64,000 nt of DNA from Tribonema minus (Eukaryota > Sar > Xanthophyceae > Tribonematales > Tribonemataceae): the NCBI GenBank assembly GCA_017506865.1, contig JAFCMP010000534.1, forward strand, positions 1 to 64,000. The letters are read 5' to 3'. Below, piece after piece: positions 364-50,300 of this stretch. A program made the translations under genes and the position numbers. Within the stretch, counting starts at the first letter, position 1, and the number at the start of each line of letters is the position of its first letter. The notes beneath the pieces are model-generated. The model ran no database searches, was not told the DNA's origin, and saw nothing but the letters and a program-made list of their open reading frames with translations.

Positions 364-3300
364 TCAACCGCAGGGGGATTGGGGGGATGTGGCCGAGCAA
401 CAAGAGCGCACATCAGTGCCCGCCGCAGCACCATTCGTCGCGTGGCCGTTCTCAACGGCAGCGGCGCTGGCGTTGGCGAGCGTGCTGGCGGCGTTGGGCG
501 CCGCGGGCAGGTCCCACGCCGGGGTTGCCGGCAAAGAAGCAGAAGGGCTTGAGCTGGAAGGAGACGACCTCGCAGGGCATCACGGGGAAGTCCTCAACGC
601 GCGGCGCGTGCGTCGCGCCGAGCGTGAGCCAGATCACGGGGTCAGCGCTTTGCAGTACATGACAGCGTTATTGCCGTCAGTGGACGTGTAGAAGTATTAA
701 AATTTAATAGGTATATCGTGCGCTCACAGGGAAGTCCTCGACGCGCGGCGCGTGCGTGCGCCGAGCGTCTGCCAGATCACGCGGTCCACACCCATCGCAG
801 CACATATGACATGGATGACCGTTGATTCCGTCAGAAGGCGTGTGGACGTGTATTGATTTGACAATGTTGCGTGCGCTCTCATGGCCCATAGGGTAGTTGT
901 CGACGCGCAGTGCCAGCGACGCGCCAAGCGTCAGCCAGACCACGGGGTCCGCGCCTGTCGCAGCAGTAACAGCGTTAGCCCCTGCAATCAGCGCAGTCGA
1001 TCGAGTGTCGGCGAATGTGTGTGTGCATTACGGGCGCATGGTGCGTGCGGCACGCCACGCATCAGACAGATCCCCAGGTGTATATTTATGAAATTGCTCT
1101 TCTTGTCCTGGCCACCGTTCGCCTGTCCCTTGTGGCCCCAAGTTACCTCAGTACTCATCGGCCCACCCGCACAAGCTCCACAGCGCCGACACCCGACAAC
1201 CTGGCATAGTACCTCCACTCTGACCTGCCAGCACCGCAGTCCTGGTCGGCTCTGACATGACGCTATGCCTCGAGAACCATCCGCCGTGCCGCACTCGCGC
1301 CCCTCTTCAGCGCAAAAATACTTCAAGTGTGACTTCAAGCGTGACGCACCTGCGCCGCAGTCGCGGTCGGCGGCGGTCCACTGGGCAGGCCCTCGCCGCC
1401 CTGCGCCTGTATCGTGTAGTCGCCCGCGGGCCAGCGCTCAGCGTCGGAGTGGGGCGTCACCCACACGTGCTTCGTCGCGAACGCCGCCTTGGTGGCGAGC
1501 GCGGACCTGCGGCGGCGGGCGGTTACGCAGCGGCAGGTACGCATTTATCAAGACAGCGTTGCATCAAAGCGCTCCGCTGCGCACTAGCAGCGAGTGTCAG
1601 CGCGAGCTTTGTCGCCATCGCCACATGGGTGGCGAGCGCGGACCTGCCGCGGCGGTTACGCGGAGGTTACGCAGTGGCAGTTACGCAGCGAAACAGCGTT
1701 GGTCAGAGTGCTGGTCGAGCGGGCGCTGTAGCAGCGAGTGTCAGCGCATGCTTCATCGCCACCGCCACCTTGGTAGCGAGCGCAGACCTGCAGCGGCGGT
1801 TATATGGTGGTTACGCAGTGGTGCTCAGCATGCGTTGTCTACCTGCGGCACAGGGGCAGCGGTTATGAGCAGGTGGCCTGTGTCACGGTGGCGCGAGTGT
1901 GCGTAGTTCTAGGCACTGCATGTTCCACCGGGAGCTTCTGGCCTCATGCGGATGGTGAAGGCGCAACTGCGGCATCTGTACTCTTGTCTGCCAAATCGCG
2001 CATGTGCTGGGACAGACATGCAGGTCATCTGCCCACCTGCGCATGCATACATGAGTCCAGCTTGCGTGTCGTTGGGCGGAGTGATGTTCTTCCACGGATG
2101 TATTCACGCTTCTGCAAGTCAACGCCGATTGCCAATTTGACACCCAGAAATTAGATGTGGACTCCAGATGATGTGCACACTCAAAAAAAGTGTTCAGTTC
2201 ATGCTGGACTGATTTGTCATGCATATTTCACATATGAGAAGGTATCTTCTGCAAACCAGGAAAAAAAAACTACAGTCATGTCCTGCAGATACATATATAT
2301 ACTCGAAGTATATACCTTGGGCCTGCGAGCAGCAGCTGGCACGGCGGCACCATGAGCTTCCACGCGATGGCTTTTCCATTGAAGTCAGGCGAATGAATGG
2401 ATGCTGCAAGAGCCAGCATTTGAGGATGTGATTCTGGTTGATTGTTGCTCCTACGTCATCAGATGCTTGCAGTACTTGAGTTCATTCCAGCAGTGACTGC
2501 CAACTTGACACCCAGATATCGGCCGTGGACTCCAGATCATGTACACGCAAGAAATTACCTCTTGTTGGACTTGCTTCGTACAGAGCACATAGAAGAAGAT
2601 TCTCTCACAAGCAGATCAAAAGGAGCCTTAGTCGTGTTGTTTCTGCAGACATACCTCGGGCCTGCGAGCAGCAGCTGGCACGGCGGCACCATGAGCTTCC
2701 ACGCCACCGGTTTCCCCGTCACGGGATGCAGCGACGCGGGGTTGGAGACCTTGAAGTAGCGCCCCTTGAGAGGGTCCAGCAGGGACTGCGCCTGCTTCTC
2801 CGTTACCAGGGGGGTTTCGCGCGTCACAAAGGCGTTGCTTGCGGGGTTGTCTTCACTCTCGGGCAGCGCCTCAATGTCCACCTGCGAGACAAATGAGCGC
2901 AGCTCTGTTATTGTCGATTTGTACGTGTTTATTGATAAATGATACTTCTCAAAGTGGTTCGTTCATGGTTTGAATACATCACGTAGTGAGGTGACAAAGG
3001 ACCGCAGCATTTTAGTGACTAGCATGTACTGCATGATAGACCCTCCGTGTCAAGTAGTGGTGCAGTTGGCGACCAGGGGGGTTTTGCGTGTCACCAAGGC
3101 GTTGCTGGCGGGGTTGTCTTCGCTCTCGGGCAGCGCCTCAATGTCCTCCTGGGAGACAAATGAGCGCAGCTCCGCGGTTACTTTATTGTTAGGCATCAGA
3201 GTGGTGCTTCTCGGTGACCAGGAGGATTTTGCACGTCAAAAATGCGTTGCTGGCGGGGTTGTCTTCGCTCTCGGGCAGCGCCTCAATGTCCACCTGGCAG

Positions 3301-6300
3301 ACAAACAGTTGCAGCTCTGTGATCAGCTTAAAACCGAACTGATAATACTTTTCGAAGGGGTTTGGTCATGGTTTTGGCAAATGGCGTAGTGATGCAGCGC
3401 GCTGACCATAGGGGTCTCGCGTGTGACGAAGGCATTGCTGGCACGGTTGCCGTGACTCTGGGGGCACCAAATGCGATGTCCGCCTGCGTTGAGACACGCC
3501 AAGTTCACTGTGTCCACTCACACATGATGTAGTGGCAGTATCTTGAATTGCGTGGCTCCCCTGGCACCTGCACGTCTGCTGGTGCTGCATGAAGTACAAT
3601 TCACAGAGAATCTTTGTGTGCAGGAGCAAAGTGCCTGGTTGCGTCCCTGAGCGCTGAGCACCATGTATATGACAAAAATATATACATTCAAGAACTTCAA
3701 CTACCTGGTTCCTATCCATGTGACATGCACATCAGAAATCCTTGCTGTGCATGCAAGTGAAAAAAGAGCAGAGAGGCCGTGACTAGCAGCGTGGGGTTAG
3801 GGTTAGCGTTTTGCTTACGGTTAGGTTAGGGTGAGATGATGTCCACGTAAACCTTGCCTGTGACACAACAAATAATGCAGTGCTGGTGGGGTTGTCACAA
3901 GCAATGAACGCCATTAACATGTGAACATAGCTTGTCTTCAATCAAATTTCAAATTTGAGACAAAAGAGCAGTGAGCAGCAAAATAATGGAGGGGCTGCGT
4001 CTAGCAGCAAGCGTAATTAATTAATGCGTCCGTGTGAAACTTGCCTGTGACACCACCAGGCCCTTGCCGCCGTCGGGATCGTCCACGGCAAAGTCCAGGC
4101 GCACGGAGAACAGGTGCTGGTGGTACTGAGCATTGACACCGTGCGCAACCTGCAGCAGCGAGCAAATGCGTGCCAACAGCCGGCAAGTTGCTGAATTGGT
4201 TACAACGCTGAGTATGCTGCTGTAGCTTCCGGCATTATGAGAGCAGGTGCCCGTGGTACTGAGCGTTGACACCGTGCGTAACCTGCAGCAGCGAGCAGTG
4301 CGGACACAAGAGGGCTGATATGAGCTCATATTGGTAAATTACAGTACGCTTTGCTTCATGTGCCCTGTTCAAAAAAAAAATTATGGGAGTGAGAGGAGAA
4401 ATCCAGCGTGCAGCTATGGTAGAGATGGCGTCAGGTTCAGGTGGCACTGGGCATTGACACCGTGGCGCAATCTGTACCAGCAAGCAAGCGCGTCAAGTAC
4501 ACAAAAGCACAAGTACAAATTGTAAAAACTACTTTCTAGTAGGCCTCCACGAGATGCGGATAGGTATGTAGCTGTAGCATGTAGCACCATGGCGTAGCAG
4601 AGATCATGAAAAGAATATCATGGCGGCGGCGGGAGGCCCGTATTGCCAACTCTGAATCAGCGCAGAAATGCAAGGAACCCGATCTAGCGTGCGCACAAGC
4701 GCAGGATATTAGCACCAGTGCTGCAGATGGCAATGGCGCTTGTCAACAGGACGATGGCACGAGTGGCAGCAGCAGAGCAACTGGAGACGGACGCGCAGCG
4801 CACAAACGCAAGAGGGTACAGAATGACGGTTGGTCAATTTCCGATCAAACAGGCGAAGGGGAGCACACGGGCGGGCAAAGTGCAGTCAAGCGCTCTAGAA
4901 CAGGTCATAACAGTCTGGAACAGCAACGTCTGATGCTAGACGACGAAGCTGGAGGTGGAGGCAGTGCGGACCCGGAGTACAAGTGCAACTTATGCGACCT
5001 CGTGGTGAAGAAGGGCATGTCGCTGCTCTCGTTACAGCAGAGGTTAAACGCCCACATCGCGGCGAAGCACCAGCGCAAACACCACAGTGGGACAGCAACA
5101 ACGTTCCTGGAGCGCTCCGACCTCAGCACGTCGCACTTGCAAACCATCTACACCGAGTGTGCCTTGTGCAAAAACCTGTTTCATGCCAACAAGACATTCA
5201 GAGTGGACAGCAGCGATGCCAGCGCGGGCAAGCACTGCCGCAAATGCAGGCCTATCACTTCACCCGCTGCAGTGGCGGCAACATTGTCAACAACAGCATC
5301 AGCAGCACCGCTAGCACCTGATGCATCGACGGCAACAGCTACCACGTCGCTGCCACAGCAGCAACCGGCGTGCACACCCATCGGCAACCCCTACGCAAAG
5401 GGACCAGCGCACGCGCAGCAGGCACCTGCTGCTCAGGCTGGTGGCAGCAGCTCCTCCGGCAGCTCAAAGAGGCCGGAACGCGGGGGCAGCAGTGCTACAC
5501 GAGGGGGTCGGGGTCGCAGTGGAGGGCGCGGACGTGGCAATGGAGGACGCGTTCGCAGCGGCAGCAATGATGCAGACATCAGCAGTAGCAGAGCGACTAG
5601 CGGCAGCAGAACCGGAGGCGGCAGCAGCAGCGGTGCCGGCGGCGGCAGTGCAGCCGGTACTAAGGACAGCGGCGCTGGCAACGGCCGCAGCAGTGATGCC
5701 AGCAGCCGCAGCGGCGGTGCTAGCAACAGCGGCAGTGGCGCGCGAACTCAAAACGGCCGCGGTGGCCGTGGCAGCGGTCGCAGCAGCGACAGCGGCGGAC
5801 GAGGCTGTGGTCGTGGCGGCCGCGGCGGCGGCGGAGGGGGTCCCAGAGCGGCAGGTGCGGCGACAGCAGCGGCAGCGCCAGGCCCTGCAGGCGCAGCAGG
5901 TGGGGCAGGTGGGCTTTTCACGTGGACCATCTCAACCCCCGCAGTCGCAGCAGTGCTTGACAGCATCAGCCTCGATGAGCTGTGCAAGCTGCAGTTCGCG
6001 ACAACTAGAAGCCTTGCTAGACCACGCAATCGTCGCTATGTGGGAGCTGCACTGGAGAACGCAGCAACACATCTGTTGGCACACACAATGACGATGTTCG
6101 TCAATGCGGCGCGGGAGCCAGATTCTGCAGGGCGGGTGCAGCGACTGCAAAGATCCACGATTCTACACCACCTCATGCCATCACTCATCACCTCCACCGA
6201 TGGCGCACCTGGCATCACTCGCTCCGACAGAATCAGAATGTTGGCACGCGGTGAGCTTGACCGGTTGGTGCCAGCGCTCCTCGCACACGCGCGTGCGCAC

Positions 6301-9300
6301 CGGCGCTGGCGCGCGCGCCAGCAAACGGAGGCAGCGATCAACGCCTACGTCCTACAGTGCATGGGCACACGGGGGGGGCTACAGCAGGCAGCGCGTTTCC
6401 TTCAGCCCAAAACGGTGGCGATACCTGATGATGACTGCTTTGCCGCCATGCAGTCCAAACACCCCCCCGCTGCGCCAGGGGAACAACTCCATGAGCTATC
6501 CGGCATGGTTGATCAGCTTGTGGCGAAAGCAGCCGACATGCCAGCAGAACTCAGCCTGTTACAGGGGGAGGGAATTGAGCCAGAGACGGTTGCCAAGCTC
6601 ATCCAGCGAGCAAGCCCTTACAGTGGAGCAGGCCCATCGGGGCTGCGCTACAGCCACCTGCAGGATGCGCTACGCACAAGCTGGGGACGGCATGAGTTTG
6701 CTGCTGTCCTCACACGGTGGCTTCAGACCGTTATGCGGGAGGCTGCGCGGCTGCCGGATGCCTTCTGGCAGTTGCATGGCGCGGGGCGCCTGACGCCACT
6801 TGCAGAACAACAGGAAGATGGTACAGCTAAGCAGCGGCCCATCGTTTGCGGCGAGGTGCTGCAGCGACTATGCACTTCGGTGTACGTGGCAGACCGCAAA
6901 GACTTCCTGGCGGAGCTCCTTGAGCCAGACGGGCAGTATGGGGTAGCCGTCTCAGCAGGAGCGGAGAAAGCGGCCATGGCCGGCAAACTCGCGTATGAGC
7001 TCGGTCACTGGCAGTTCATGCTGGACCTCAAGAATGCCTTCAACATGGTGTTCGTCCTGGCGGCAGCGGAATGGGTAGCAGCACAGCTGCCGGACTTCCT
7101 CGACTACTTCATCGGCACATACGTTCGCACTCGGCCACGCCTGCTGTTCCAGCACGTTGACGGCTCCACGCGCATCATCATGTCTCAGCGCGGGTTTAAG
7201 CAGGGGGACCCCGCGGCACCGATGCTCTTCTGCGGCGCCATTGCTCAGTGCTTGAAACGGTTCAATGAGGCGGCGGCTGCGCAGCGCGCGCGGAGGCGGA
7301 TGGGCGCCTACATGGACGATGCCAACGTCCGAACAGGCGCTTGCACGCTGACTCAGGATGACATACAGGCGGTGGCGCAGCTCAAACAACACTTTGCGGA
7401 GGTGGGGCTGGAGCTAAACCTCACCAAGTCACGCGCGCTGCCTGGCAGGGGGCATGTGGTGACAGACCACGAGCGGCAACTGCTGCAGCAGCTGGGCGTT
7501 CAGCTAGTGGGGGATACGGATGAAAATCAGAACCGTGGAGCTGTGTTGCTGGGGGTGCCGGTGGGCCACAGCAGCTTTGTGGACGCATGGCTGCGCAGGG
7601 AAGCGGGTGCAGGCGGGGCAGGGGCTCGATTTGCAGAGCGATGCGCGCGCCTGACATCTCCGAGGGCTATGTTCAGGTTACTGCGCTACTGCGTGGTGCC
7701 TCGCATGACGTACTGCCTGCGCACCATTCCCACTACGCAGACAGCGCCAGCCGCCAAGGAGTGGGATCGGGTCACGCAGTGGGTGCTTGAGCACTCAATG
7801 GGCCTGCAGCCACCAGGCCAGACCTGGCGCCAGTTTGATCAAAGTGGGGCCCACTTCCATCTGGCAGCGCACGGCCCAGCCTTACAGCAAGCGCGACTCC
7901 CAACACGGCATGGCGGCCTTGGCATTACCAGCGCCTGCGACATCGCTGATGCTGCGTATGTGGCGGGCACGTTGCAAGCGCTGCAACCAGCACTCTCTGG
8001 ATGGGCGGGGGTGCTGCAGCAGGCGGCTCCTCAAGCGGCTGCAGACAACGCTGCTGAGGATGCGGCAACACAAGCGGCACCGGCAGCAGCGGCAGCAGCA
8101 CCAGCACCAGCAGCATCAGCAGCGGCAACTGTTACAGCGGCAGCGGCGGTTGCCAGTGGAGGCGCGACCGCTCCGGCAGCGGCAACTGCATCAGCGGCTG
8201 GCCGCGCTTATGGCGCAGCCATTCCGGCAACACACGACGCAGCTGCCGCTGGATCAGGGGCCGCGGCGGCAGCACAGGCGGCACCAGCGGCAGCAGCAGC
8301 AGCGGCGGCGCACGGCGCAACTACTCCGGCGGCAGCAGCAGCGGCGGCAGCAGCAGCTGCTCCAGCATCAGAGGCTGCTGCAGCAGCGGCAGCACATGTT
8401 GCACCTCAAGTGGCCTCGGCGGCATCACTAACTGCAGCATCAACAGCAGCGGCTGCGGGCATAGGCAATACAGCTGCTACAGGCCCTACTAGCCTAAGGG
8501 CTGCTGCAGCACCTGCAACAGGAGCAGCGTCGGCAGGCGGCGCCGCAACCGTGCCGGCTGCGACAGCGGCAATGGCGGTGGCAGCGGCCAATGCGGCAGG
8601 TGCTGCACCAACACCTGCGGCAGCAGCAACACCACTGGCAGCAGCAGCAACGGCAGGCGGCACAGCTGCAGCACCAGCGCACGCAGCAGCGGCAGCCGTC
8701 AATGCAGGCGCTGCGCGTTCCACACCAGCAATGCTACAAGGCGCAGCAGCGGCAGAGGTGGCGCGCCTGCCCCTCATGCGGACGATCGCCACAGCTGCCA
8801 CATCTCTACGTGCAGCAACAGGTGACAAGCTGGAACATATACTGCCACCAGCGCTAACGCCACTGCAGCAGCAACCACCTACGCAGCAGCCGCCGCTGCG
8901 GCCGACAGCAGGTGGTGGCACTGGTGCGGATGCTGCTTGCGTACTTGACGCCAGTGCTCTGCAGTTGCAGTGTAGCCTGAAGCGCCCCAATCAGAGTGCG
9001 CTTGCAGATGCCGTCGCTACCGAGCTTGCAGATAAGGTGGAGGCGGACCTGCAACAGCTGCCGCAGGGCACGCAACGCACGCAAGCACTTGCTCGATTCC
9101 GGTCGCAGCGCCACATGCACTCGATCGGCATGGCATTCCTCAACGAGCCCATGTACTCCACAACGGCTTCGTTCGATGGCCTATCCTGGCAGCTGGCCGT
9201 CAAACGCGCCATCGGAGTAGAGGAGCAGACGGCAGGCTGCAAGCTGTGCGGGAAGTCGCCGGGCGGCACCCTGCATGCACGGCTGTGTCAAGCGCCACGC

Positions 9301-12300
9301 GTCAAGGCGCACGACACCATTGTCCACAATAGCGTCAAGAGGGCCACGCAGCGCCTCCTGCGGCAATACCTCAAAACGGGACTGGTGGACGAGGACTACA
9401 CGCCGTTTCTGGGGTCCGCCGGGCCGCCGGGGAGTCGCAGGATGGACATCGTGCTGCCTGCCGACGCCTTCCCGGTGACCGGCTACGACGACCCGACACG
9501 CCACCTACCGCTCATGGTGGACGTTACCTGCTTCGAGGCACAGGTGGCGTCGCGGGCGGCGAAGACTGCAGCAGACCCCGAGCGATGCTGCCGCGACCAA
9601 GAGGCCGCCAAGACTACCCACTATTCTGGTCATTATGATCAGAATTGCTACAAACTTGCCACATTGGCAATAGGGTCATTTGGCAGCATCGGGGAGCAGG
9701 GGCGGAAGCTGCTGGAGGCTGTGGCGACGGAGTATGCCAGCAGGATGTCAGTGCCCGGAGGAGCGCGCCCTAAAGCTCTCAAGGGCATCGCCCTGGCGCG
9801 CTTACGCTCGGCACTGTCGGCAGCGCTCCACATGGCGTACTCTGGCCGTGTCATGACACACATGGCAGAATCCAGGGGGGGGGGGCACATGGAGGAGGAC
9901 GTAGGGGAGGACCCCGAGATGCCATTTGGCGGCGGCGGCGTTTGAGTGGTTGTCGTTGCGACACTTTCAGACTGTCATACGACATGTAGATTCCTTACAG
10001 CTAGATGCCAATCATCTGGGCTTTTTCGCGCCCTGAGCGAGAATTAATAAAAAGTACACAAAATCAAACTGGTGCACTCATTATTGGTTCAAGTACGTTG
10101 GAGAAAACCATGGCGTAACTGTGAATTGGACAACTTTGTGTACAGTGCATTACCATGGGCCTCTACAATGTATCTCACGCTGAAGAACAATGATGGGGCG
10201 CACACAATCAGAGGTGGTGCTGGCAGTGCTGAGTGCTGGCGCCATGCATCAGCTGCACACATGTTGTACCTGGCCGATAGCAAAATGCTTTCGCATATAA
10301 CATCTGTTGCTCTACGTTGAAGCGCTGAATCGCACAGCACCACAGGTTATGCAACTGATACCATATATACATACATATATGCTGTGTACTGACACTCACA
10401 ACAGCGCCCTGTAACCGCAGAACAAGCTTGTCATATGACACTGCAACAGCGCACTACAATCACGAAAAAGAGATAATGCCATGCATACCCACTGCTGCAC
10501 GATGCCCAGCAAGGGCGTGAATACGTAACAGGTGACTCTCCGCCGCTCACTGCCGTGCGTACCCACTTCCTGGTTAGGGCTAGGGTTCGAGTTAGGCATG
10601 CATGCACGTTCGGCCGGCTGGCGCAACAAGCGGCAGTCTCTGCTCCTCACCATTGTGCCGAACGCAGATCCGCCGTTCTCCCCCGGCGACAGCGCATTAG
10701 TGGACAGCTCGCCGGTCAGCTTGATGTCGTAGCCAATAGTGCCTGCGGCGCACACACAATGGGCGCATGGGAAGTGACGGGTGCTCCTTCCAGGGAGAGC
10801 AGCGGGCAGCAGGTAGCAGTTGCATGACGCTGAGTTTGGAAACTCGCGCAATGCGTCACACCCGGCATGCCACTGTACAAGTAGATGTGCACTATTAATG
10901 TGCTGTACGTTAAAATGCCGTGATGCAGCCGATGGTGCCTGCGGCGCGCACAGGTAGGCCGCAACGGGCGTGAGCATTTGCGTAATATCAGCGCGGCACT
11001 TGTAATAATTGCATATCCCCTGCTGCATCTGTTTTGTAGACTTGCGCAGTGCGTAGTGGTCAAGAGTGCATTCTTGATGGGGCATGCTCTCATGTACATG
11101 CGTACATAACTCGCACTCTCGCAGTTCGCCACGGTGCGCATAAAGCTGAACGCCAGCTGCCATCACCCCTTAACTCCCATCAAGGACGCGCTTGAGCACA
11201 CCACTGCATGGCAAGACGTAGCCAATGGTGCCTGCGGCGCGCGCAGACAACGCACACGAGGTGTGACTGCTGTGCACTGACGCAGACAATTGTCTGGCGC
11301 TGGTATGTGCAGACCTGTGGTATCAGTAGCGCAGTGCGTCGAGGCTCTGGGACGCACTACGCAACAGTGCACCAACAGTTCATGTACACTATATACGCTT
11401 GTCGTCACCACCACCTTAAAATGCCTATCTACGGCGCGCTTGAGCACATCACTGCAAGCAAAAGAAGTGCCTCGCCGTCCTGGTGGAAGTAGTAGTACAT
11501 GGCGTACTCGTAGTTGACCACGCTGCACACAAAGCTGAGCACCAGGCAACATTGCACACCACGACGCACATGTGCAGAGCACTATAATTTCAGCAAGGCC
11601 TCGCCGTCCTAGTAGAAGCAGTAGTAACATGGCGTATTCATAGTTGACCATGCTGCACAAAGCCGACCCATATGCAAAACCGCAAATAGAAATTTTACAC
11701 CAGGACGACCTTGAGCACAGCACTGTAATTTCAGCAGAGCCTCACCGTCCTGGTAGAAATAGTACTTAGTACATGGCGTACTCATAGTTCATGACAGCGC
11801 ACGCAGTGCTTCGTGTGACGCAACATGGCGCACCACGACACACTTGAAGAGCAGGGCCTCACCGTCCTGGTAGAAGTAGTAGTACATGGCGTACTCGTAG
11901 TTGACCACGGTGCACACAAAGCTGAGCACGAGGCGCCGCGAGCGCCGCACCTCGCTGTGGCCGTTGCGGTACTCTACGTGCTTCCACAGCATGCCGTAGT
12001 CCTCCTCGTGCATGCACACTGCCTTGGGCACTGACACCGGTTCACCGCGGCTGCAGGGGAGGTGGCGCGGGGGGGGGGGGGGGGGGGGGGGGGGGATGTG
12101 GATTATCATTCATCTGCTGTTTTAGTTATGAGTTGGTGTTATGTACAGCATGCCGTAGTCCTCCTCGTGCATGCACACCGCCTTGGGCACGGGCACCGGT
12201 TCGCCGCGGCTGCAGGGGAGTTTGCGGGGGGCGTTGGTGACCAGTATTGAGAGCCACAAGGGGGGGGGGGGGGGGGGGGGGCATATCGTTACTCTGCAGA

Positions 12301-15300
12301 ATCAAAAGTTCCGTACTTTGAAGTATGTGTAATGGCACTGGCACCGGTTTGCCGCGGGGGGAGGCGTTGGCGGCCAACGTAAAGAGCCGGAAAGGGGTTT
12401 GAGGGGGGCGGGGCGTGTGGGAAAGCACTACTCCGCTGTATTGCAAGTTTGTGTGTTTTAACAAAAAGCCAAAGTCCTCCTCGCACATGCTCACCGCCTT
12501 GCGCACCGGCACCGGTACGCCGCGGCTGCATGTGGGGTCGCGGGGGCGGCGGCGGCAGCATTGAGAGGCGAGACGTGCCGCAGGGGGGCAGGGGGAGGGG
12601 GGGGGGGCAGCCTGCATGTGCTACACTGCAGTGACGCGGGGGGGGGGGGAGGGGGGGCACTGTGCGGTATGTAGGTACGACCATCAAGCACACATTCACA
12701 GTATGTACCTGACCCCATCAGGCACGGGTGTATGCTAGCTTACTCCACGCAGGACTGCTCGTGCCTGTCGACATGTGTTGATGCAGGAGACTCGCTTGCT
12801 GTTCAACATGGCATCCAAGTACTGCATGCTGCCGTAGAGAGTTCGGGTGCATATATGATACTTGAAGTATAACTTGACATTGAGCAAGAACGCTCAGTCG
12901 TATTATATGTATCGCATGTTGCTCGCCCATCTCGAGTTGAGCATCGCATCAAAGTAGTACCAGTTGCAGTGAAGATGTATTCTTTCCTCACTGGCGTTCG
13001 GCATCGCATTCTTGGCTCACTGGCGTTGGGCGTCGTATCGAAGTGGAGGATGTCGTCTTGTGCACGGTGGAGACCTCACGGGCATCGCGTCCAATTAGTG
13101 TATTTTACAAGCAACAATGCTCAACCGTATCAGATTCATCTCAAACTGGACGCTCGCCTGTTGTTGAGCATCGCATCGAAGTATGTTGCCAGAGAGGTTC
13201 CGGTGCATACATGATATAATTTGACCTTGAGCAAGGATACTCTATCATTTCAAAACTACCTTTCTTTTGTGGATTCACCTGTTGTAGAGCATGGCATCGA
13301 AGTTGTGTCAGTCATTTCAAAACTATCTTTCCGTTGTGGACTCACCTGTTGTTGAGCATCGCGTCAAAGTAGTGTATGTTGCCATGCTTTGGGCGTATGT
13401 CGCCAGAGAGGTTTTGATCATATATTATGCATTCTGACCTTAAGCAAAAATACTCAATTGTTTTATATTTATCTTGTTATCAAAGGCTCACCTGTTGTTG
13501 AGCATGGCGTCAAAGTAGTGTATGTTGCCGAGGCAGTCGCACCCCAGCGCCAGCGACGAGGTGCAGTTACCTAGACCGTAGTCGCCCACGTCAAACGCGC
13601 ACTTGCGCGTGAACGGCTCGTTGGGGTCCCTGTGAGCTCAACAGTAGGTATGGATACGCATCCGCATATAGTTCAGGCATGAGCATACAAGTATGATAAT
13701 AAATGTACGTTGACCCACGTCCAAGGCTCAATTTGGGTCCTGCGAATCATCAGCGGGTATTGGTATGCATCGGCATCGTACTGTAGGTATGAGGGGTGTA
13801 CAGCTCCTGCTCCATGTCAGTGCTAGACTTAATTCCTGACTTGCACTGCACCGCCACCTGCATGAGAATTGGTGCAGTGTTGATTGTGGCTTGCGATGCC
13901 AGTGCTCAACTTGAGTAAGCGCCCGTATTGCATATCATGTTAGTGCTTAATTTGCCTGTACGTATCAAAAAGTTCTCCATGTACCCATACGCGTTGGTGC
14001 GCAGTTTATCCGTACAGTAGCGCCATATCTACATGAGGGGGGAGCGGTGCAGAATGGCGTGTAGCCCTCAACTTGATTGGTTACCCTCCTAAATATATAT
14101 GGATGAGAGCTTGCTCGAAATTTTCGAGCTTCTTCGTAATCATTGTAGCAGATGCGCAACAAAATAATGGAGATGAAAATACTCGTTGCATTGCTCGCTC
14201 GCCCGTACGGCACCGCCATCTCGACAAGCGAGAAGCGGTGCAGGATGGGGCGCACGCGGCCGCCAATAGCTTTTCTGTCAGAAGTATTTCTATAGCAGAT
14301 GCTTGCAGCATGCACATACAGTTTGAAGTACACATACTTGATGGAGATGAAAATGCTTGCTGCGTCGCTCACCCGTACGGCACGGCCATCTCGACGAGCG
14401 AGAAGCGGTGCAGGATGGGGCGCACGCGGCCGCCGTCCTCATAGCCCACGGAGTGCAGCACGAGGCCCTCGCGGTAGTTGAAAGAGATGCGCACGCGCCA
14501 CCGCTGCCACTGGATCAGGTTGCCATCGACCTGCACGCGCGAGAACGCGCAAGGGGCAGCAGCGCTCAGTCTCAGGTACGTGAGTGCTCAGGGGGTCAGT
14601 CACATCCGCATCAGGCCATCAACGCAGAGCTGTCTTACGTGACGGGTCTTGCAGTCTCAAAGGCGACAGCAGTGCTTAACGTCAGCGCGCCTGTTGCAGC
14701 AGCGCTCGATCTCAAAGACTTCAGCGCTCCACGTCAGCTCACTGCTGACTTTGATGTCATGCCTCATCAACCAGGGTTGGCATATACAGCCTACGCCGTA
14801 TACATATATATATATATATAACCGTATATACTGTATGCGCGTACGTATGAGTCCCGCCGGGACGAATACACGGACGGTGTTTGCAGCACAGATGGTGGTA
14901 CCATGACAGCATCGAGCAATTATATACGACATGAAGTGCGCAGCTCGTGCTCGACAAACGACACCACGCTCGGCAATCGCAGCCCCGCCTCACACGCGAG
15001 CGCTAACAAAGAAGTTCAACATGAAGTTGAATGTGAAGTCAAAGTTGAAGTTAGCAGCGACCGTATATTGCGTACGTATTGGCTTCGTATATAACGAGCG
15101 TATGACATAGAACCGACTGTGTTTGTCAACCCTGTCGTCAACAAGCTTCTGTAGGCTACGCTTAAACACAGGCGGACCGATTGCTGCTTCTCGCCATGAG
15201 CATTTTGAGGCAGCGTGAAACAGACACAACAATCTTGAGCTTCGGCAACTTCAACATACTGTCCACACCGCTCCCTCGGGCTGCGCAATGTTCAGCGATT

Positions 15301-16591: not shown

Positions 16592-16622
<31 letters not shown>

Positions 16623-34900: not shown

Positions 34901-37900
34901 TGGGCGAGCAGGGGCGCAAGGCAAGGGCGTGGTCAGCCTGGCAGCGACTCGTGTTGATGTTGCGAGGCACTTCCGGACAACGCCGTCAACCTCTGCCGTG
35001 ACAGTGAACCAATTCATTGAAATGTTATTGAAGTTATAAACATTGGGTTGGCTCACCCTGACTTATCTAATATCCTGACTTTGTACTCACCGCTAGATAG
35101 GAGTAGAATTGACCTAACCCAAACTCTAACCCTAACCCTAACCCTAATCCTAACCCTAACCCTATATCAAAATGCTGCAGACGACTATGCACGTAAACTT
35201 TGAGTTGGCTCAGCCAGCTCGTCAACGGAATGAATTCCGGCAATGTTTGTGAACCAATTCGTTGAAATGTCCATGATATCAAATATCGGGTTTGCTCACC
35301 CGCTGATGGAGCGTGCCAGCTCGTCAACAGAAGAAAATTGCGAATAATTTTGAAATCCTGCACCGATGGTGAACCAGCTCATTGAAATTTAAACAACGTT
35401 TACAAAGTTTGGGTTTGCTCACCCGCTGATAGAGCGAGCCAGCTCGTCGTCGATGCTGCGCTCTGCAAACCAGTACCCCTCCATGCCCTGCAGGCTGGAC
35501 ATGAGGGGCCCAACGGTGTTGATGAACTGCAGCGCAGGACAGGGCCAAGTGCAACGCAGCAGCGATCAGCAAAGGTCGGGCCATCCAACATGAGCCACTG
35601 GCGGAGGCGTTGAAGTGCCGCACAGGATGGGCCACGTGCAGTGCGGCAGTATTCAGCAAGAAGATGCTTTTCTTGTAGAGAGCGAAGCTGTGTAGTTGGA
35701 GAGAGAGCGAAGCTTTGTAGCGGCCAAGTACATGCAGCGTTTATGGACTTGTACAACGCCAGCTGCGTATCTTCACAGCGCAGCGATGGAGGCAATGGCA
35801 TTCTGCGATGCGGCAAAGGGTCTGGTAGGAACGCTCTTCTCGCGCATTCTACGCGCACGTGGAGCACTGCAGACAGGCGTGCAGGACCCCCCAGCTGCCT
35901 CAACGCTCAGCGCTCAGCGTGGTGAGCATGTCACCAGTTGAAGCAGCATCGAGCACTCTGTGAGGTGGACCAGTCGTGCGGACGGACAGTCGCACCTCGG
36001 GCATTCAACTCGGCCTTTCCATTTCAATCGCCTATGCAATTTCAGCAGCGTTTGTCTCCGCGCTTTCAATTGAATGGTACACGGAATTTCAGCAGCGTTC
36101 AACTTCGCGCTTCAATTTGAATCGTACACGGGATTACAGCAGCCTCCTCCCGGTGAAGTAGCATGAGCATAGTGGCAGGCAGGCAGTTGTGCGGACAGTC
36201 ACACCTCGGATGGTCAATTCGGCCCGTCAATCTCTGAGTCGCGCACAGATTTTCAGCAGCCTCCTCACCTGCGTCTCCCACCCCCGCGACACGTTGTCGC
36301 TCTCAAAGTGAGGACGAAACGTTTGGGCGATGCAATTGGGCAAGGACCTTTTGAGACGAACAGGCGCACAACTGTTGACGCTCGAATGGCGCGGGCTCAA
36401 TATGGCGACGCCCGATCCGTGTTGAATAGGACTTTTTGTTCCCCATGAAAGAGTGCCTCACCTGCGTCTCCCACCCCCTCGACACGTTGTCGCTGTTGCC
36501 GTCGCCGCCGCGCATGGAGAAGACCAGGCGCACCGCCTGCGCGGACGCGACGGTGCTGCCGTCGGGGGGCGTCACTTCAAGTGCGCCAAATTCAACTGCG
36601 CGCGAGACGGGCGACCCGTCGGGGAAGGCGGTTACGCTAACTGCCGCCAGCAGGTCGGACTCGGTGGCGACTTCGGCGTCGTACGTCGCGCGGTCGCTCG
36701 ACCAGAACTCGAGGATGCCGTGCACCTGAAAGTGGTGGGGTGGGTGAAAGGGCAGCGGAGCGTCAGCTGGCTGTAGCAGGGGGGCACCCCCGCGCGCGTG
36801 CACCTGCTGCTCGCGGCCGCGCCGGCGGAGTGCTGCGCATCGCAAGACATGGCATGCCAGCCGTGATGACGAAGTAGAACACACATCTGTCACCTGTGCG
36901 AGGCGCTTGCACTGTGGAGAGCGGGGCAGTGGGCACAACGCGGTTCACTAGCATAGCGCAGGCCTCGTCCTCGCTCAACCCCCTCCCCCCCCCCAACACA
37001 CACACACACACGCGCGCGCGCACACGCAGTGCGCTATGAACCCGCTACATCGCATGCGATGCTCGCCCTCAAGGCAGGTCGTCGCAGCACACACACGAGC
37101 TGCACATTATGTATTGCGTATTCACATATACTTCGAGTGAAGTACACACATACCTCGCACGCGCCGCTCGCGTCGCGCGCGCACAGGTCCTCGTACGACT
37201 CCCCCTCGCCCGCGGTGACGGCGACGACAGCGTCGTACGCGCTCCAGATCTGCGCCACGTTGGCGAGCGTGAGCACGTTCGCACCCTTGGGCGCCACAAA
37301 CAGGAGCTGCGCGTCTGCGTCCGCCTTGCCGAAGGCCTGCGCGGAAGGGGGGAGAAGGGGGGGGGGGGGGGGGGGTGATTGTGGGCCTGCGGCGGTGTTG
37401 GCGCCTCGCAAGCAAAAGCGCCAGGGGGGGGGGGGGGGGGGAAGGGTCTATGGAAGGGGGGGGAGGGGGGGTCCATGGCACGTGCGCGTGTACTAGAGTG
37501 CTACCGTGAAGGCAGCAATGCTCAGGCAGCAGCGCTCAACTCTCACATCTCTCATCCTGCTTGCTCTTGTTGTTCAACAGTGCCTTCAGCTTCGTGCCTC
37601 TAAGCAAAAGTCTGATGCAAGCAGCAGGTACAGCAAAAGAGTGACCAGGCAGCAATGCTCAGGCAGCAGTGCTCAACGCTCACATCTTCCATCGCATCCA
37701 GGTCCTGCTTGCTCTTGCTGTTCTGCGGCACCCCTGGGATTCATGCCCCTAAGTAAAAAAATAGCAAAGCTTGATAGTAGCGGAAGGTAAGGAACCAGCA
37801 AATTGAGAGACCAGGAAGCAACACTGAGGCAGCAGCGCTCAACGCTCACATCTTCCATCGTGTCGAGGTCCTGCTTGCTCTTGCTGCTCTGCGGCACCCA

Positions 37901-39556
37901 CAGCTTGATGCCAGCCGTCTCGCTCTGGATGTTGAGAAAGCCAATGCAGCACGCCAGCGCGATGAGCAGCGTGACGGCCAGTGTGACCACCCTGTGCGTC
38001 GCTATCCAGTACCCTGCGCAGCAGCGGCAAGTTCAAGCTGATGTTGATGTGAGCGGCGAATTGAAGTTGATGTTGAGGTGAGCCGCAGATTGAAGCTTGA
38101 TGTTGAGGAAGCCGGTGCAGCACGCCAGCGCGATGAGCAGCGTGCCGGCCAGTGTGACGATCCTGTGTGTCGCTATCCAGTACCTTGCGTGCAGCAGCGG
38201 CAAATGCAAGCTGATGCTGAGCGGTAGATTCAAGTTGACTGAGCAGAAAAGGAACGCCGGCGCAATGGGCAGCGTGGCCGCAAGGGTGACACCCGATGCG
38301 TTGCTGTCAGGTGCCCCTGCGCATGCTGCGGCGGCAAGTTCAAGTTGAATTTGAGCAAAAAGGCACGCGCCAAGCCCAATGGGCAGCGTGACCGCGAGGA
38401 TGATTGGCTTGTGCATCGCTGTTCAGTACCCTGTGCGCAACGGCAAATTCAAGCTGAAGTTGAGCAGGATCAGACACAGTGTGAATACTCGACGATTCGC
38501 AGGCTCTCAAGAGCACTACGCAGGCATGCATGACGGATGGTGCGCGAGCGCACGATCTGAAGCGGTGCGTAGCAGAAGTCTACTATGTCACAATTAACTT
38601 TGTAGACCGCAAACTTGACGACCGCTGACGAGGTTTGCCTACTTGATGTCGGCAACATAGACCGCTGAGCAATGCTGCGGATAACAAATAGATGACGCCG
38701 CACACGCTGAGACAACTCTGGTGAGGCAGCGTCACTGCGTATCGAATGCACGCGGGTGACATGCTGTAGTTCTTGCAAAGGGCTACAAGCATGGTCTAAA
38801 TGTGAAGATGGCCGCTACAAAAGGACGAGCCTCCATGGCTCGATGCGCCAATTCGTGCCAAGCTCAACTACTTTCGCACCAAGTGGCGGATAGCTGGTCT
38901 GCATGTTCTTGGAAAATAGACGACACGTGTAGTATCCATCATTTTGTGACAGCAAACGCGGGCCGCCAGTCAGCCAGTTAACTGTTAATACATGTTGCAG
39001 GCGAGCAATTGCTAAAACAGAGCCAAAATGTATGCTTCGTTGGTGTTGGGCCTGGGGCCGCCGTGTGTGATCTGTTGCAAGTGAAGCCGCCATGTGTGAG
39101 TCTGCCGCATTTCAAGAGAACTGTGTGCACAAACGACAAAGCCCGAGAAGGTAAGTGGTACGTGTGCACGCACATGTATGCACATGGGCTTATGCGCAAG
39201 CAACGTGGCGCCGTTACTTGTGGCTCAATGTCGCGCTGGAAGTTCTATGCTGCAGCTGATGCGAACTGGCGCGATCTACAGCAACAAACCCAGCGCGTGA
39301 TTGCTGATGAATACTGGGTGTTGCCAACGTTCATACCAGTTTGCATACGGTATCTGAGAACATTACACCAGTGTAGGTCAAAGTGGATCGTTTCGGGTTG
39401 ACGTTGAAGCTCACCGGCCCTGTAGAACGCGCGTTGGCTAACGCGCTCCAGCTCGTGATGCAGACGGTCATAGAACTTGAGCTTGTGGCGTTTGCTGCCG
39501 AACCCTGAAGACGCAGCAGCCGGACCATCGACGTGCTTTGCTGGCGCAGTCGACAT
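22963..39556 (-). CDS. Patched / NPC1-like sterol-sensing membrane protein, 18 exons, 944 aa
   Basis: Exons: 39415-39556, 37850-38013, 37154-37336, 36462-36725, 35423-35526, 33962-34151, 33327-33404, 32652-32828, 31979-32122, 31020-31181, 29756-29941, 28735-28803, 27793-27993, 26239-26346, 25739-25800, 24412-24610, 23752-23883 and 22963-23232. All junctions are GT-AG, phases agree at each one, and the total is 2,835 nt. The start is MSTAPAKHVDGP. Exon 2 holds the first membrane helix and exons 3-5 the first outer loop. Exons 6-8 hold the sterol-sensing-type bundle with PFLLIGIGLDDAFIM, and exon 10 another helix. Exons 11-14 form the second loop (LVPDSSYAREY; FYVNTETDLV). Exons 15-18 form the second helix bundle (EIGPSVLFAGLTTFVGILTM). 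A Ser-rich tail follows. At 944 aa it lacks the NPC1 Cys-rich N-terminal domain, so it is nearer PTCHD/Patched proteins. The likely role is RND-type lipid or sterol transport; the substrate is unknown. Confidence 0.9.
24163..24340 (-). repeat. Copies of Patched-like exon 16 donor edge
   Basis: The real end of exon 16 (coding HIIHYFTAHGT, then GTGAGT) is at about 24406-24460. Copies lie at about 24163-24230 (nearly identical, including ACCGTGCCGTGCGCGGTGAA) and about 24287-24340. Confidence 0.75.
24615..25300 (-). repeat. Copies of Patched-like exon 16 acceptor edge, each with a long C run
   Basis: The real start (coding LFFVGHLRYTAML) is at about 24573-24610. Copies lie at about 24712-24765 and 24860-24900, with weaker ones near 25000 and 25262. 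Plus-strand G runs at about 24630-24656, 24771-24784, 25024-25041 and 25196-25210 accompany them, so exon edge and C run were duplicated together. Confidence 0.8.
27275..27670 (-). repeat. Copies of Patched-like exon 13 donor edge
   Basis: The real end (coding VSVSRVTMYSADTGDVE) is at about 27787-27850. Copies lie at about 27598-27665 (almost identical), 27405-27450 and 27275-27320, with increasing divergence with distance. Confidence 0.8.
28920..29610 (-). repeat. Copies of Patched-like exon 11 donor edge
   Basis: The real end of exon 11 (coding DALDVTDVSAQQAMIDLQAE) is at about 29756-29820. Similar segments lie at about 29569-29600, 29350-29425, 29218-29290, 29105-29140 and 28925-28960. 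They share AGGTCCATCATGGCCTGCTG (plus strand) and a following donor. A copy of the acceptor edge lies on the other side at about 30085-30130. Confidence 0.8.
30700..30990 (-). repeat. Copies of Patched-like exon 10 donor edge
   Basis: The real donor region (GVTQ|GTCGGTCAG) is at 31001-31060. Copies lie at about 30851-30925 and 30705-30760, keeping CTGCTGACCGACCTGCGTG. C runs on the transcribed strand sit beside each unit. Confidence 0.75.
34440..34640. other. AT-rich island in a GC-rich intron
   Basis: About 200 bp with A-rich runs such as AAAAAGAAAAAAAT and TAAAAAGAAAAAAAAGAT, unlike flanking sequence. One frame gives a Lys/Arg-rich peptide (KRKKRFKRKHVLTNYQTR). It could be an organelle DNA insertion or a small retroinsert; I cannot name the source. 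Confidence 0.4.
35111..35163. repeat. Interstitial telomere-like array
   Basis: Seven or eight near-perfect CCCTAA units with single-base variants, the best of a set. Shorter degenerate arrays lie at about 3793-3835, 10574-10592, 25818-25840, 26955-26998, 27556-27598, 28640-28690, 29297-29335 and 30243-30297. Most of these sit in introns of the Patched-like gene; 3793-3835 and 10574-10592 sit in amine oxidase introns. Confidence 0.8.
35205..35340 (-). repeat. Copies of Patched-like exon 5 donor edge
   Basis: The real end (coding DDELARSIS) is at about 35413-35455. Copies at about 35293-35335 and 35205-35235 keep GCTCACCCGCTGAT and CAGCTCGTC (plus strand). Confidence 0.65.
36140..36310 (-). 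repeat. Copies of Patched-like exon 4 donor edge
   Basis: The real end (coding GGDGNSDNVSRGWETQ) is at 36462-36510. A copy at about 36262-36305 keeps CCTCACCTGCGTCTCCCAC (plus strand). A weaker piece lies at about 36140-36160. Confidence 0.7.
37352..37440 (-). repeat. Paired poly-C tracts near the exon 3 acceptor
   Basis: Plus-strand G runs at about 37359-37375 and 37422-37441 are C runs in the transcript. The first is directly upstream of the exon 3 acceptor at 37336 and would serve as its polypyrimidine tract. Confidence 0.7.
37500..37750 (-). repeat. Downstream copies of the donor half of Patched-like exon 2
   Basis: Segments at about 37655-37750 and 37500-37600 repeat the exon 2 donor end at 37844-37910 (coding WVPQSSKSKQDLDTMED). 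The 37655-37750 copy still reads NPRGAAEQQEQAGPGCDG in another frame, so coding is lost while DNA identity remains. Confidence 0.75.
38095..38450 (-). repeat. Upstream copies of the first membrane-helix exon of the Patched-like gene
   Basis: The real exon (37850-38013) encodes GYWIATHRVVTLAVTLLIAL. Copies of its acceptor and helix part lie at about 38095-38200 (GYWIATHRIVTLAGTLLIAL, still open), 38225-38320 (DSNASGVTLAATLPIAPAF) and 38345-38440 (LHKPIILAVTLPIGLGA). The nearest copy keeps an AG acceptor, so alternative inclusion is conceivable. Confidence 0.8.
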
Positions 39557-46370: not shown

Positions 46371-47110
46371 TGAACAAGCAGCGCAAGCGAGCAAGCAAAG
46401 ATGACATCATGTGCCACACGAACCTCTGAGAGGCAACACCACCCCTAGTACATGGCAACGGGCAGTGAACACTGTAAGATAATCACATGCATGGCGATGT
46501 ATCAAAACATCGTAGAGCTTCAGGCGACAAGGCGTGGTCGGCCGCAAGTGCTTTCTACCCATAACCATGATGCTTATGTCATCGCATCGCGCCTTGGCGA
46601 CGCGCGTCAACGCGCAGCGCAGCGCGTGCGCCGACCACACGCCGCCGTCAGCAGCGCGAGCGCGCCCGCCTGGTGCTCCACATGATGGCGCCCTCTCTGT
46701 GCGTGATGACACACACATTATGTCGCAGTACGGGGGGGGGGGGGGGAGGGCCAGACTCTGGACGGACGAGGACGTGATGGGGAGGGAGTTGCTATAGTCT
46801 ATGGCAATGTGTTTGTCATCAGAGCGCGCCCTTGGCGATGAGCGCCGCCGCGAAGCGCAGCGCGTGCAGCACACAATAAGACGCGATCTGCCGCACCATC
46901 CTCTGAGCAGCAACACCACCCCTGGTACATTGCCACCAGCAGGTGACCGCAGTAACATAATCCCATGCACACGCGTCATCGAACAGCGCCCTTGGCGACG
47001 CGCGCCGCCGCGAAGCGCAGCGCGTGCAGAATACAAGCGGGCAAACAAACAGACGTGATCTGCTACACCATCCTCTGAGAGGCAAAAACCGCCCCTAGTA
47101 CATTGGAACG
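46370..47110 (-). repeat. Copies of the COX15 terminal coding region beyond its stop codon
   Basis: The end of COX15 (coding [14 protein letters not shown], about 47325-47400) recurs at about 46978-47031, 46818-46870 and 46578-46680. The last copy also includes the preceding GALALLGG part. Copies alternate with segments reading CACCATCCTCTGAGAGGCAA. Because they lie past the stop codon, the duplication process is not limited to introns. Confidence 0.8.
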
Positions 47111-47315
47111 CACAGTGACCACATTTGTGTGTGTGCAGCGCGCTGCGCAGCCACGCGAAGCGCGCGAATGCGCTCTACTCACTGGAGGCGGGCTCCTTGC
47201 AGTCCAATCACTGTGTTGTTAGTGGGGCCTGCTGGGCAGACGCCCGAGGCGGAAATCATGGACCCTTTGGTGCAGGGCGACGCCACCATACGCGTAACCG
47301 AACACAACACACATG

Positions 47316-50300
47316 TCATCGAATCGCGCCCCTGGCGACGCGCGCCGCCGCGAAGCGCAGCGCGTGCGCCGACCACACGCCGCCGCCCAGCAGCGCGAGC
47401 GCGCCCGCCTGGTGCGCCGCCGCCAGCGGCAGCGGCACGCACAGCAGCAGCGTCGAGACGCCCAGCGTCACCTGGCCGAGCGCGACGGCGGTTACAAATG
47501 ACTGAGCGCTGCGCGCGCCGGCGGGCAGCGCGACCCACAGCGCGCCCATCTGGCCGCGCCGCGCGATGACGAAGGTGCCGACAGCGGCGCCGAGCGCTGT
47601 CATGGCAAGCGCGCGGTGCACTGCCTGGACCGTCGCAGTGTTCTCGAAGAAGTTGCGCCAGAGAGGCTGACGCGGCGCGCACGCGCGCGGGGGGGGGGGG
47701 GGGGGGGGGGGGCGGGGGCGGCGAGGGAGTGGGCAGAAAAAATCAGCATGTATGCTGACGCAGCGACTGAGTGTTGCAGGTGTGTTGAAAGCTGCGCTGA
47801 GCGCTGAGGAGAGATTCAGCAAGCATGGCGACCGAGCGGTGGACCGCCTGCACGGTCGCCGGCCGTGTTCTCGAAGAAGTTGTGCTAGAGGGGCTGACGC
47901 AGGGCAAAGGGGGGAGCCGGGGGGCGAGGTCGGCATCTGCAGATGGAAATGGCATTAGGTAATGTCAGCAAGTCATTTGTCTAGTCTTCTATGCTGTGTG
48001 AACCGATGCAACATGCAGCGCTTCACAGTCCATTGTCACCGCTGCGCAAACCCTAGCGCGCTGAGCACACGCCGCACCAACACTGCAGAGCTGCTTGATA
48101 AGGCAGAACTTCACGTCTGTACCTCCATCTCCAGGATCTCAACCGGCAGCCATCTGTCGGGCAGCATGCGTGGAAATGTGTTGTAAGCGCGCCCCGCGTC
48201 GTTGCCCGCAACGAAGGCGCCGCTCAGGGCGGTCACAAAGGACAGGGCTGCAGTCGTGAGCGCCGCGCCGCGCAGCACGCGCGCCAGCGGCAGCGACTGC
48301 GGCGCGAAGGAGGCCAGCGCCTGAGGGGAGCGCGCGGGTGCAGAGGGGGGATGGGGGAAGAAGAAGAGGGGGTTTGGAGCGTCACTTGTCTGCACCAGTA
48401 TGAGCGCAGAGTGATTGCTTCGGAAGCATCACTCGTCAACCTTGGAGGCATAAACAAGTACTTCGTAGTAGGAGTGTACGTCAGCGCCAGTACAGGTGCG
48501 GTGTCAGCAGCTTTGGGATACTTGCTTCGGAAGCGCGTCTTCGTGCGTTAGTGCATCCCAGAAACCTGTGTAAGCGCGCCACAGCCGCTGCGCTGCATCG
48601 GCCAAAATGCGGTGCGCCGCAAGTGCTGTGGCCAACTGTCGCGAAGCCCCGTGCTTGGATGCGCTGCAACCTCACCTTGGTCACACTTCTTTGAAGTACA
48701 TTCTGGCACCTGCACTCTGCCTGACGTCTACGCTCTGATGTGCGCACCAGTCTCAAGGGGAGCACTCGCCGCACAGGCACAGCACAGACAAAGTACAGCT
48801 ACAGTACAGAAACAGTACAAGTACATCAACACACGTGCGCACCTGCCGCGCGGCGCCGGGACCGTGCAGCGCGTCCAGCCCCGTGTGAACCAGCAGCGCG
48901 AACGTCGTGAACGCCATGCCCAGGTGCGCAGCGAGACGGTACGGGCTCACGCGGATCTGCACGCGCTCCCCCCCCTCCCCCTCCCCCCCCCCCGCCCCCC
49001 GCAGCCGCGCCAGCGTACCCTCGTGCAGGCCGCTCTTGACCATCCACCAGCCAACGAGGCCCTGCGCGGCGCCGAGCGCGAGCAGCGCGGCGGCGCGGCC
49101 GCGGATGTGGCGCGGCAGCGCTCCACGCGCGGCGAAGTAGAGCAGCGGCGCGCCGTAGACGACGCCAAGCGCGCGCCCGAGCATGCGGTGGCCGTACTCC
49201 CACCTGCGGGGGGAAATTGTGTGTGTGTGTGTGTGTGGGGGGGGGGGGGGCAGTGCGTGCGACCGCGATGGCGGGTGAGATGCGATAGCAGCAGCATTCG
49301 GCGCTTGGCAGGAGGAGAGGCAAGGGGCTGTGAGAAGAGGTGAGGGGGGCAGGCTGAGCACATGGCAGGGCATCTTAGCCCTGCAGGTGCACATTTGTGG
49401 CGTGAAGCGGGGAGCAAGCAATTTGGCCCAGATGGCAGGTGTGATGTGGTAGCGTTGCGTGTACGGCACAGCCGAAGCAAGGGGCTTCATGCTTGGGGCT
49501 TCACGCTTGGGGCCCCAGATGTGCAGAACCAGTGTGCATGAGCTGCAGCCGCCAGAACTCGCATCACAAGAACACACCAACAGGCACCTCCTATGCGGTT
49601 GGCAAATGTGTGTGCCACCCTTCACTGATGACAGACGTCTCGCACACGTGAGGCAGAGCAGCGCCGCGCCGTGGCAGAGAGCGCGTGCATGCGGTGATAC
49701 CGGTGCCTGTGATGGCCAATGCTCACCAGAAGATGTACTTGAAATCATCGAGGGTCATTCCCTGGTGCTGGCGTTGCTGATACTCCGGGAACTGCTTGTA
49801 GCGAGCAAACTCCGCCTCCCATTCTGCCTCATTGAGAGGTGGCAGCGAGCCCTGCATAGTCAGCGCAAGCGGCCACTTCAGCAGTGAGGCTGGTGGTGCT
49901 TTGGAGGCGGGGATTAATGGCTGTTGCGTGAGCTGCGATGGCGTGCATGTACGCGCAGGTGCTGTCGACACAACGCATGACATACTTCCATGTTGTATCG
50001 ACAGCATCTGGGCGCACATGCACATGAGCATGCCTTGGTGTACGGGGGAGAGTGCGCGTCTGTTGGAGAGAGGGAACGGGTGTGCATCAGTGCGCTGCGT
50101 GTCAGCGAAATGCCAATGGACTGCGCGGTTGGTAGTAATGTATGCGCAGAATCTAGCATTTTGCAGCAATCCGTGTTCTGGACTCCGCATCCACTCTAGG
50201 AGATGAACAAAACATAAGCAGGATTGCCTGCGATCCTTGATCGCACAAAGCTGCTGTTGTGACGCAGGTTGCCGTTTAGCATTTTCTGCACCACTCACTG

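Follow-up and report, generated by a model that had tools for sequence, protein, structure and literature searches.

Why should introns in three unrelated genes contain pieces of the very exons that adjoin them? The question is raised by bases 1-64,000 of contig C531 (the window, by which we mean this whole stretch) from the yellow-green alga Tribonema minus, whose assembly comprises 158 Mb in 554 contigs. According to the original prediction, which was made from the letters of the window, the non-coding sequence around at least eleven exons in three minus-strand genes repeats the edge of the exon together with its splice site. That claim holds: we counted 22 splice edges with adjoining copies, 11 in a copper amine oxidase gene, 10 in a transporter gene and one in a COX15-like gene. 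The exon-edge copy pattern is real and genome-wide. As to its origin, we give slightly better than even credence to the reading that the copies are relics of old local tandem duplications, of which those in exon interiors were purged, those in mid-intron faded from view, and those at exon edges stayed visible, sometimes after conversion.

Exons were mapped with homologous proteins (tblastn) and splice signals, and self-alignment was then carried out gene by gene. The three genes are:

518-17671, minus strand: copper amine oxidase gene, from tblastn with the Micractinium homolog P0001 and splice signals placed by eye
17438-17671, 15836-16033, 15351-15500, 14373-14530, 13492-13629, 11863-12050, 10651-10742, 4045-4149, 2655-2881, 1350-1506 and 518-655, minus strand: the 11 mapped exons of the amine oxidase gene
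22966-38013, minus strand: sterol-sensing-domain (Patched/NPC1-like) transporter gene of ~17 exons, from tblastn with P0121
47317-50615, minus strand: COX15-like gene of 5 exons, matching P0122, 'COX15-like protein [Tribonema minus]'

The first amine oxidase exon was taken from its open frame, and the acceptor of the last exon is uncertain. P0121, which matches NPC1 and Patched structures, is related to the transporter at 25% identity over 63% of the query; the first transporter exon (37850-38013) was placed by splice signals and frame, and two others, at 25.7-26.4 kb, are guesses only. Among the matches listed, the first COX15 exon is 100% and the third 99% identical to P0122; a COX15 paralog, P0123, was placed on contig C79.

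Throughout, acceptor copies lie upstream and donor copies downstream of the real edge. The copies, seen by self-alignment unless another basis is given (lengths in nucleotides, nt), are:

724-977, minus strand: acceptor-edge copies of exon 518-655
1603-1821, minus strand: acceptor-edge copies of exon 1350-1506
2312-2365, minus strand: donor-edge copy of exon 2655-2881 (98% over 54 nt, of which 50 nt are exon)
3054-3463, minus strand: acceptor-edge copies of exon 2655-2881 (self-alignment and protein match)
4239-4493, minus strand: acceptor-edge copies of exon 4045-4149
11217-11240, minus strand: weak acceptor-edge copy of exon 10651-10742 (15 nt of exon)
11439-11805, minus strand: donor-edge copies of exon 11863-12050 (self-alignment and protein match)
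12145-12609, minus strand: acceptor-edge copies of exon 11863-12050
12791-13383, minus strand: donor-edge copies of exon 13492-13629 (self-alignment and protein match)
14167-14264, minus strand: donor-edge copy of exon 14373-14530 (self-alignment and protein match)
15249-15297, minus strand: donor-edge copy of exon 15351-15500 (self-alignment and protein match)
24157-24357, minus strand: donor-edge copies of exon 24412-24610
24705-24913, minus strand: acceptor-edge copies of exon 24412-24610
27279-27691, minus strand: donor-edge copies of exon 27793-27993
28925-29595, minus strand: donor-edge copies of exon 29756-29941
30081-30137, minus strand: acceptor-edge copy of exon 29756-29941
30701-30913, minus strand: donor-edge copies of the exon ending at 31020
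35004-35325, minus strand: donor-edge copies of exon 35423-35526
36263-36301, minus strand: donor-edge copy of exon 36462-36725
37510-37733, minus strand: donor-edge copies of exon 37850-38013
38096-38466, minus strand: acceptor-edge copies of exon 37850-38013
47824-47900, minus strand: acceptor-edge copy of COX15 exon 47317-47666
46576-47027, minus strand: three copies of the COX15 stop-codon edge, not a splice edge, downstream of the gene (two of the three aligned)

The weak acceptor at 10742 is counted among the 11 amine oxidase edges; two further transporter edges, which showed copies at a looser cut only, are excluded from the 22. Within the window genes the best self-alignment reached an expectation value (E) of ~1e-44, and many copies are visible as protein: the match of a homolog to the exon is followed, at a distance of a few hundred bases, by a second match to just the exon's last or first ~12-30 residues. 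Two repeat families that seemed unattached at first, 37510-37899 and 37925-38466, belong to exon 37850-38013. The acceptor-side stretches named beforehand (24712-24900, 3078-3302 and 38095-38440) turned out to hold copies of the exons starting at 24610, 2881 and 38013, and the donor-side stretches (13142-13410, 27275-27665 and 28925-29600) copies of the exons ending at 13492, 27793 and 29756. The plus-strand gene region at 40.5-45.6 kb gave no self-repeat at E 1e-3, and an Rfam search of the window gave no match. The segment 24600-25000 matched nowhere else in the genome in a search that skipped common words; no wider introner-type search was made.

The main set consisted of 58 introns (52.7 kb of intron), 26 from the window and 32 from kinesin genes across the genome. 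Intron edges came either from the exon maps of the window or from successive Pfam matches combined with splice signals; the splice filter let through 32 of the 50 kinesin introns, and three transporter introns with uncertain exons were excluded. Several of the 18 failing kinesin introns were minus-strand, and those that passed after being turned went into a further set of 20 introns. In the myosin set 14 of 26 introns passed, 13 remaining after the L064 intron was excluded; an exon-to-exon family at L060 was also excluded. Families were called at E ≤1e-4 in direct orientation only, the first self-alignment of the window having covered both strands. The expectation came from a model in which duplications are evenly spread and take up to 100 nt of exon.

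The main set yielded 48 families, 20 at donor edges, 18 at acceptor edges and 10 at neither, with none confined to an exon interior. Thus, 38 of the 48 were edge families, compared with 10.6 expected from geometry; the excess had p=0.0003 on the assumption of a 5-fold detection advantage for edges and was marginal (p=0.03) at 8-fold. About one-third of the exon edges (38/116, 33%) carried copies. Seven of eight myosin families lay at an exon edge, as did five of eight in the 20-intron set (2.8 expected); four introns of the COX15 paralog showed no repeat families. Pooling window genes, kinesins, myosins and the COX15 paralog (91 introns) gave 50 edge families, 14 intron-only families and no exon-interior families. 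Self-alignment had been proposed as the check, with duplication of exon interiors and mid-intron sequence as often as edges as the contrary outcome; that outcome was absent, exon interiors being duplicated in 0 of 64 families and mid-intron sequence in only 14. Intron gain from exon interiors was rejected as a candidate on the same count, there being no such family in the 91 introns. The intron-only families of the main set had best identities of 72-81% in nine of ten cases and 89% in the tenth, from which we take that population to be old.

An excess at edges invites an explanation in which a junction- or transcription-linked mutational mechanism creates or renews copies at exon edges specifically, for instance through breaks or template switching near exon-intron borders, or through refreshing of the copy from RNA or cDNA. 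The 38 edge families and the fact that the most similar copies are alike mainly in their exon part and splice signal speak for it. Against it stand the 14 mid-intron families among 64, the good fit of most copies to plain decay of a unit that includes the intron flank, and the copies of the COX15 stop-codon edge, whose identity stops a few nt past the stop codon although the mRNA would continue. The stop-codon copies speak against a purely splicing-linked mechanism. Weighing these points, we regard such a mechanism as unlikely. A related possibility is that exon edges are duplication hot spots from which junction DNA is copied outward, exons and relics exchange sequence, and introns grow mainly from their own borders; this too we consider improbable, if worth keeping in mind. 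Hence the suggestion in the original prediction of a mechanism tied to splice junctions is weakened by the copied stop-codon edge and the real mid-intron repeats, while a few-fold edge excess, described below, remains in its favor.

Copy features were taken from 85 exon-copy pairs in the window genes and kinesin loci at a looser cut (E 1e-3), with two half-introns included. The copies stand in direct orientation beside their source edge with the splice site included, 91-835 nt from the real edge, and nearest-copy spacing had a median of 145 nt (90-200 nt in 38 of 44 edge families). The copied exon part measures 9-111 nt and is 72-100% identical to the exon. On its inner side similarity ends (47-49% identity, compared with 49-50% for random pieces), which indicates that the inner end is the duplication breakpoint. 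The intron flank is weakly but truly similar, at 57-79% in eight groups at offsets 7-15 versus 48-52% in random pieces; the similarity is individually significant in 40-89% of copies, depending on the group, and lies mostly within 50 nt. The expectation that splice-site context would be kept best is borne out only loosely: the exon part and the splice signal are kept, and the intron side of that context much less so.

The same pairs bear on whether the repeats could be an assembly artefact. The repetitive structure alone speaks for this. However, the copies differ from one another at many sites as well as from the exon, they occur in many genes on many contigs, and arrays are common to two paralogs. 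We give the artefact, which had been named as a possible refutation, hardly any credence.

Could the copies instead be functional, for example as alternative or regulatory splice sites under selection? Their splice dinucleotides are well kept: the 47 donor copies begin with GT in 33 cases, GC in 11, GG in two and AT in one, so that GT or GC is kept in 44, and 32 of 38 acceptor copies end in AG. On the other side, 18 of the 85 pairs have gap columns within the exon part that do not add up to a multiple of three, the spacing shows no preferred frame (the three phases hold 31, 32 and 22 of the 85), just half of the single-codon changes are synonymous (156/307), and, per lineage, the copies change at ~3.7 times the rate of the real edge. 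A functional role thus seems very unlikely, and the narrower candidate of copies as constrained functional exon parts was ruled out by that faster drift. As a separate observation, GC outnumbers the other altered dinucleotides at donor-copy starts (11/47); among the mapped exons, amine oxidase exon 4045-4149 has an apparent GC donor at 4045 on the minus strand (CACAG|GCAAGT).

The rate came from comparing two copies with their exon over 2,250 sites (57 copy pairs in 21 families, pairs within a family not being independent). Changes private to one copy numbered 430, and at 58 sites both copies agreed against the exon. The corresponding distance ratio was 0.78 (bootstrap 0.67-0.87), on a scale where 0.5 means equal rates and 1.0 a frozen exon; the real edge is therefore near the ancestral state. 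This faster drift is as expected of non-coding relics of constrained sequence.

Decay was simulated neutrally with exon part and flank decaying together. Among older copies, with at least 6% exon divergence, the flank was too diverged at p<0.05 in just 5 of 69, and the other 64 were compatible with neutral decay. In contrast, 11 of the 16 most similar copies had flanks far too diverged for the state of their exon part; the copy at 2312-2365 is a case in point, hardly recognizable beyond its 54 nt at 98%. Something has preserved or refreshed the exon parts of such copies. Conversion patches ending at random within the exon part were also considered and ruled out, as no older similarity was seen past the patch.

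A test of renewal is offered by two myosin paralogs on contig C79, at ~611-616 kb (minus strand) and 689-695 kb (plus strand), which lie ~75 kb apart in opposite orientation and share introns. Locus L072 and the reverse complement of L070 have in common an intron that contains a donor-edge copy. The intron sequence separating exon from copy, up to and including the bases that immediately precede the copy, can be aligned across the two paralogs (score 105.6; 200 shuffles reached -0.8 at most), which places the origin of the copy before the paralogs split. Over the 82 nt of exon part, each copy differs from its own exon at only 3 and 4 positions, compared with 8 between the exons and 5 between the copies. 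Three sites join each copy to its own exon, and there is no site that unites exon with exon or copy with copy; the seven other changes are private, with 3 and 2 in the exons and 0 and 2 in the copies. In a copy that predates the split, this affinity is what gene conversion or template switching, working in either direction since the paralogs diverged, leaves behind. The flank was not homogenized in the exchange.

How, then, might the pattern have arisen? On the tandem-duplication reading, duplications within exons would be eliminated by selection, and one straddling an edge would be tolerated when the working edge stays joined to the exon body. Because the working edge must adjoin the exon body, acceptor copies would come to lie upstream and donor copies downstream. 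Purifying selection would fix the real edge, leaving a relic recognizable for longer than a mid-intron repeat in which both copies drift. Now and then the real exon may rewrite the exon part of a copy, or exchange sequence with it, by gene conversion or template switching. The first three filters (interior loss, edge tolerance and slower visible decay) suffice in principle for the edge pattern, and conversion adds to visibility at edges. Shown at the L072/L070 locus, exchange is something we infer elsewhere, where it would keep some copies at 94-100% beside barely recognizable flanks. The original suggestion that selection lets only such duplications survive comes close to these findings; survival alone is insufficient and has to be joined by visibility and by at least one exon-to-copy conversion.

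The same scheme can be stripped of conversion: duplication would be uniform and survivorship purely neutral, with edges special only in that a constrained exon serves as yardstick. The copies drift and the exons do so far less, as this account would have it. It also draws support from a detection simulation, limited to donor edges and run with assumed unit sizes and two assumed indel rates, in which edges were 2-4 times more visible at 0.2 changes per site and lineage and 5-22 times at 0.25. A second paralogous myosin edge (L065/L064), with four copies per gene, some with related flanks, fits it too. However, it leaves the own-exon affinity of the L072/L070 pair and the 11 of 16 youngest copies with overly diverged flanks without explanation, and the reservoir of mid-intron repeats seems too small for it. 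That reservoir was estimated with a sensitive scan of pure mid-intron windows far from edge copies, of which 8.0% of 263 were self-similar, versus 1% of controls. A power simulation converts this to ~13% repeated at 0.15 changes per site and 26-32% at 0.2, both copies counted, for comparison with the 33% of real edges (38/116) found at a less sensitive BLAST cut; as the mid-intron windows came largely from repeat-poor introns, the figure is biased down. Young whole-unit tandem duplications were few in the 192 kb scanned (overlapping loci excluded, with one array counted twice through the overlap of L027 and L051). Taken together, these observations make us doubt the purely neutral account.

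Several results also weigh against our own preference for tandem-duplication relics with occasional conversion. For duplications of even ages the simulated visibility gain at edges was only ~1.3 times; the detection and power simulations together leave a few-fold excess at edges, which suggests, within these models, that visibility does not fully cover it. Conversion was shown at one locus only, one of the two paralogous edges compared, and there the three diagnostic sites span 9 nt, so that a single event would suffice; private changes are commoner there in the exons (3 and 2) than in the copies (0 and 2). At L065/L064 the two exons differ at five sites. Three of these differences are confined to one exon, and none of its four copies has them; for the remaining two, one of the four copies agrees with its own exon at both sites and another copy at one site. 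Judged from these comparisons of paralogs, exon-copy exchange occurs, but not everywhere.

Other features of the window stand apart from this argument. An amine oxidase intron houses, at 4585-9945 (plus strand, opposite to the gene), a long open frame that encodes a reverse transcriptase domain (PF00078). On the plus strand, stretches of 27-30 G at 12069-12095, 24629-24656 and 47689-47718, which make the coding strand nearly all C, immediately precede acceptors and stand there as polypyrimidine tracts. Short telomere-like CCCTAA-type arrays occur in transporter introns (26954-26993 and 35113-35164). The sole self-repeat found in 17.9-22.8 kb is contained in an ankyrin-repeat open frame (PF13637) at 19411-20211 (minus strand). 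Outside all mapped genes, 52424-55381 holds repeats in both orientations with copies ~3 kb apart, and 62312-62981, in a part of the window with lower G+C, holds an inverted repeat of 207 nt at 92%.

Among the open-access literature matches listed, no genome was described with many exon edges carrying decayed intronic copies, and none of these matches described conversion between an exon and its intronic edge copy. Single boundary-crossing tandem duplications are already known; their large-scale occurrence and the exon-copy conversion would be new, as far as those matches go. Through such duplications an intron would gain length at its own borders and retain a spare, datable version of the exon edge, and the pattern makes intron growth, the choice between near-identical splice sites, and coding/non-coding exchange testable within a single small genome. 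Should relic copies be able to rewrite exons, they would be an unusual source of mutation as well.

In known concerted evolution, gene conversion in tandem repeats causes the copies of an array to share lineage-specific changes. The single T. minus locus differs in that the exon part was homogenized and the flank was not, and in that a coding exon is paired with an apparently non-coding relic.

The closest parallel to the duplications themselves is the potato RdRp gene, in which a single tandem genomic duplication runs across an exon-intron boundary (PMC4974935). There, as in T. minus, a piece of the exon edge has come to lie within an intron as a result. Unlike that one case, which created a new intron, the events in T. 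minus are recurrent (38/116 edges), often with several copies, and the copies lie and decay inside introns bounded by existing splice sites. Intron gain from tandemly duplicated exon segments is a standard model (PMC2891723) and shares with our findings local tandem duplication and the intronization of exonic sequence; in that model, however, the exon interior is duplicated and the intron arises between the copies, whereas in T. minus no interior family was seen and the splice site is copied along. Tandem alternative splice sites (PMC8055015, PMC2279118) likewise place more than one splice-site copy near an exon edge. Those sites, however, are described as closely spaced and as serving alternative splicing, whereas the T. 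minus copies, known here from sequence alone, lie 91-835 nt off and bring 9-111 nt of exon with them.

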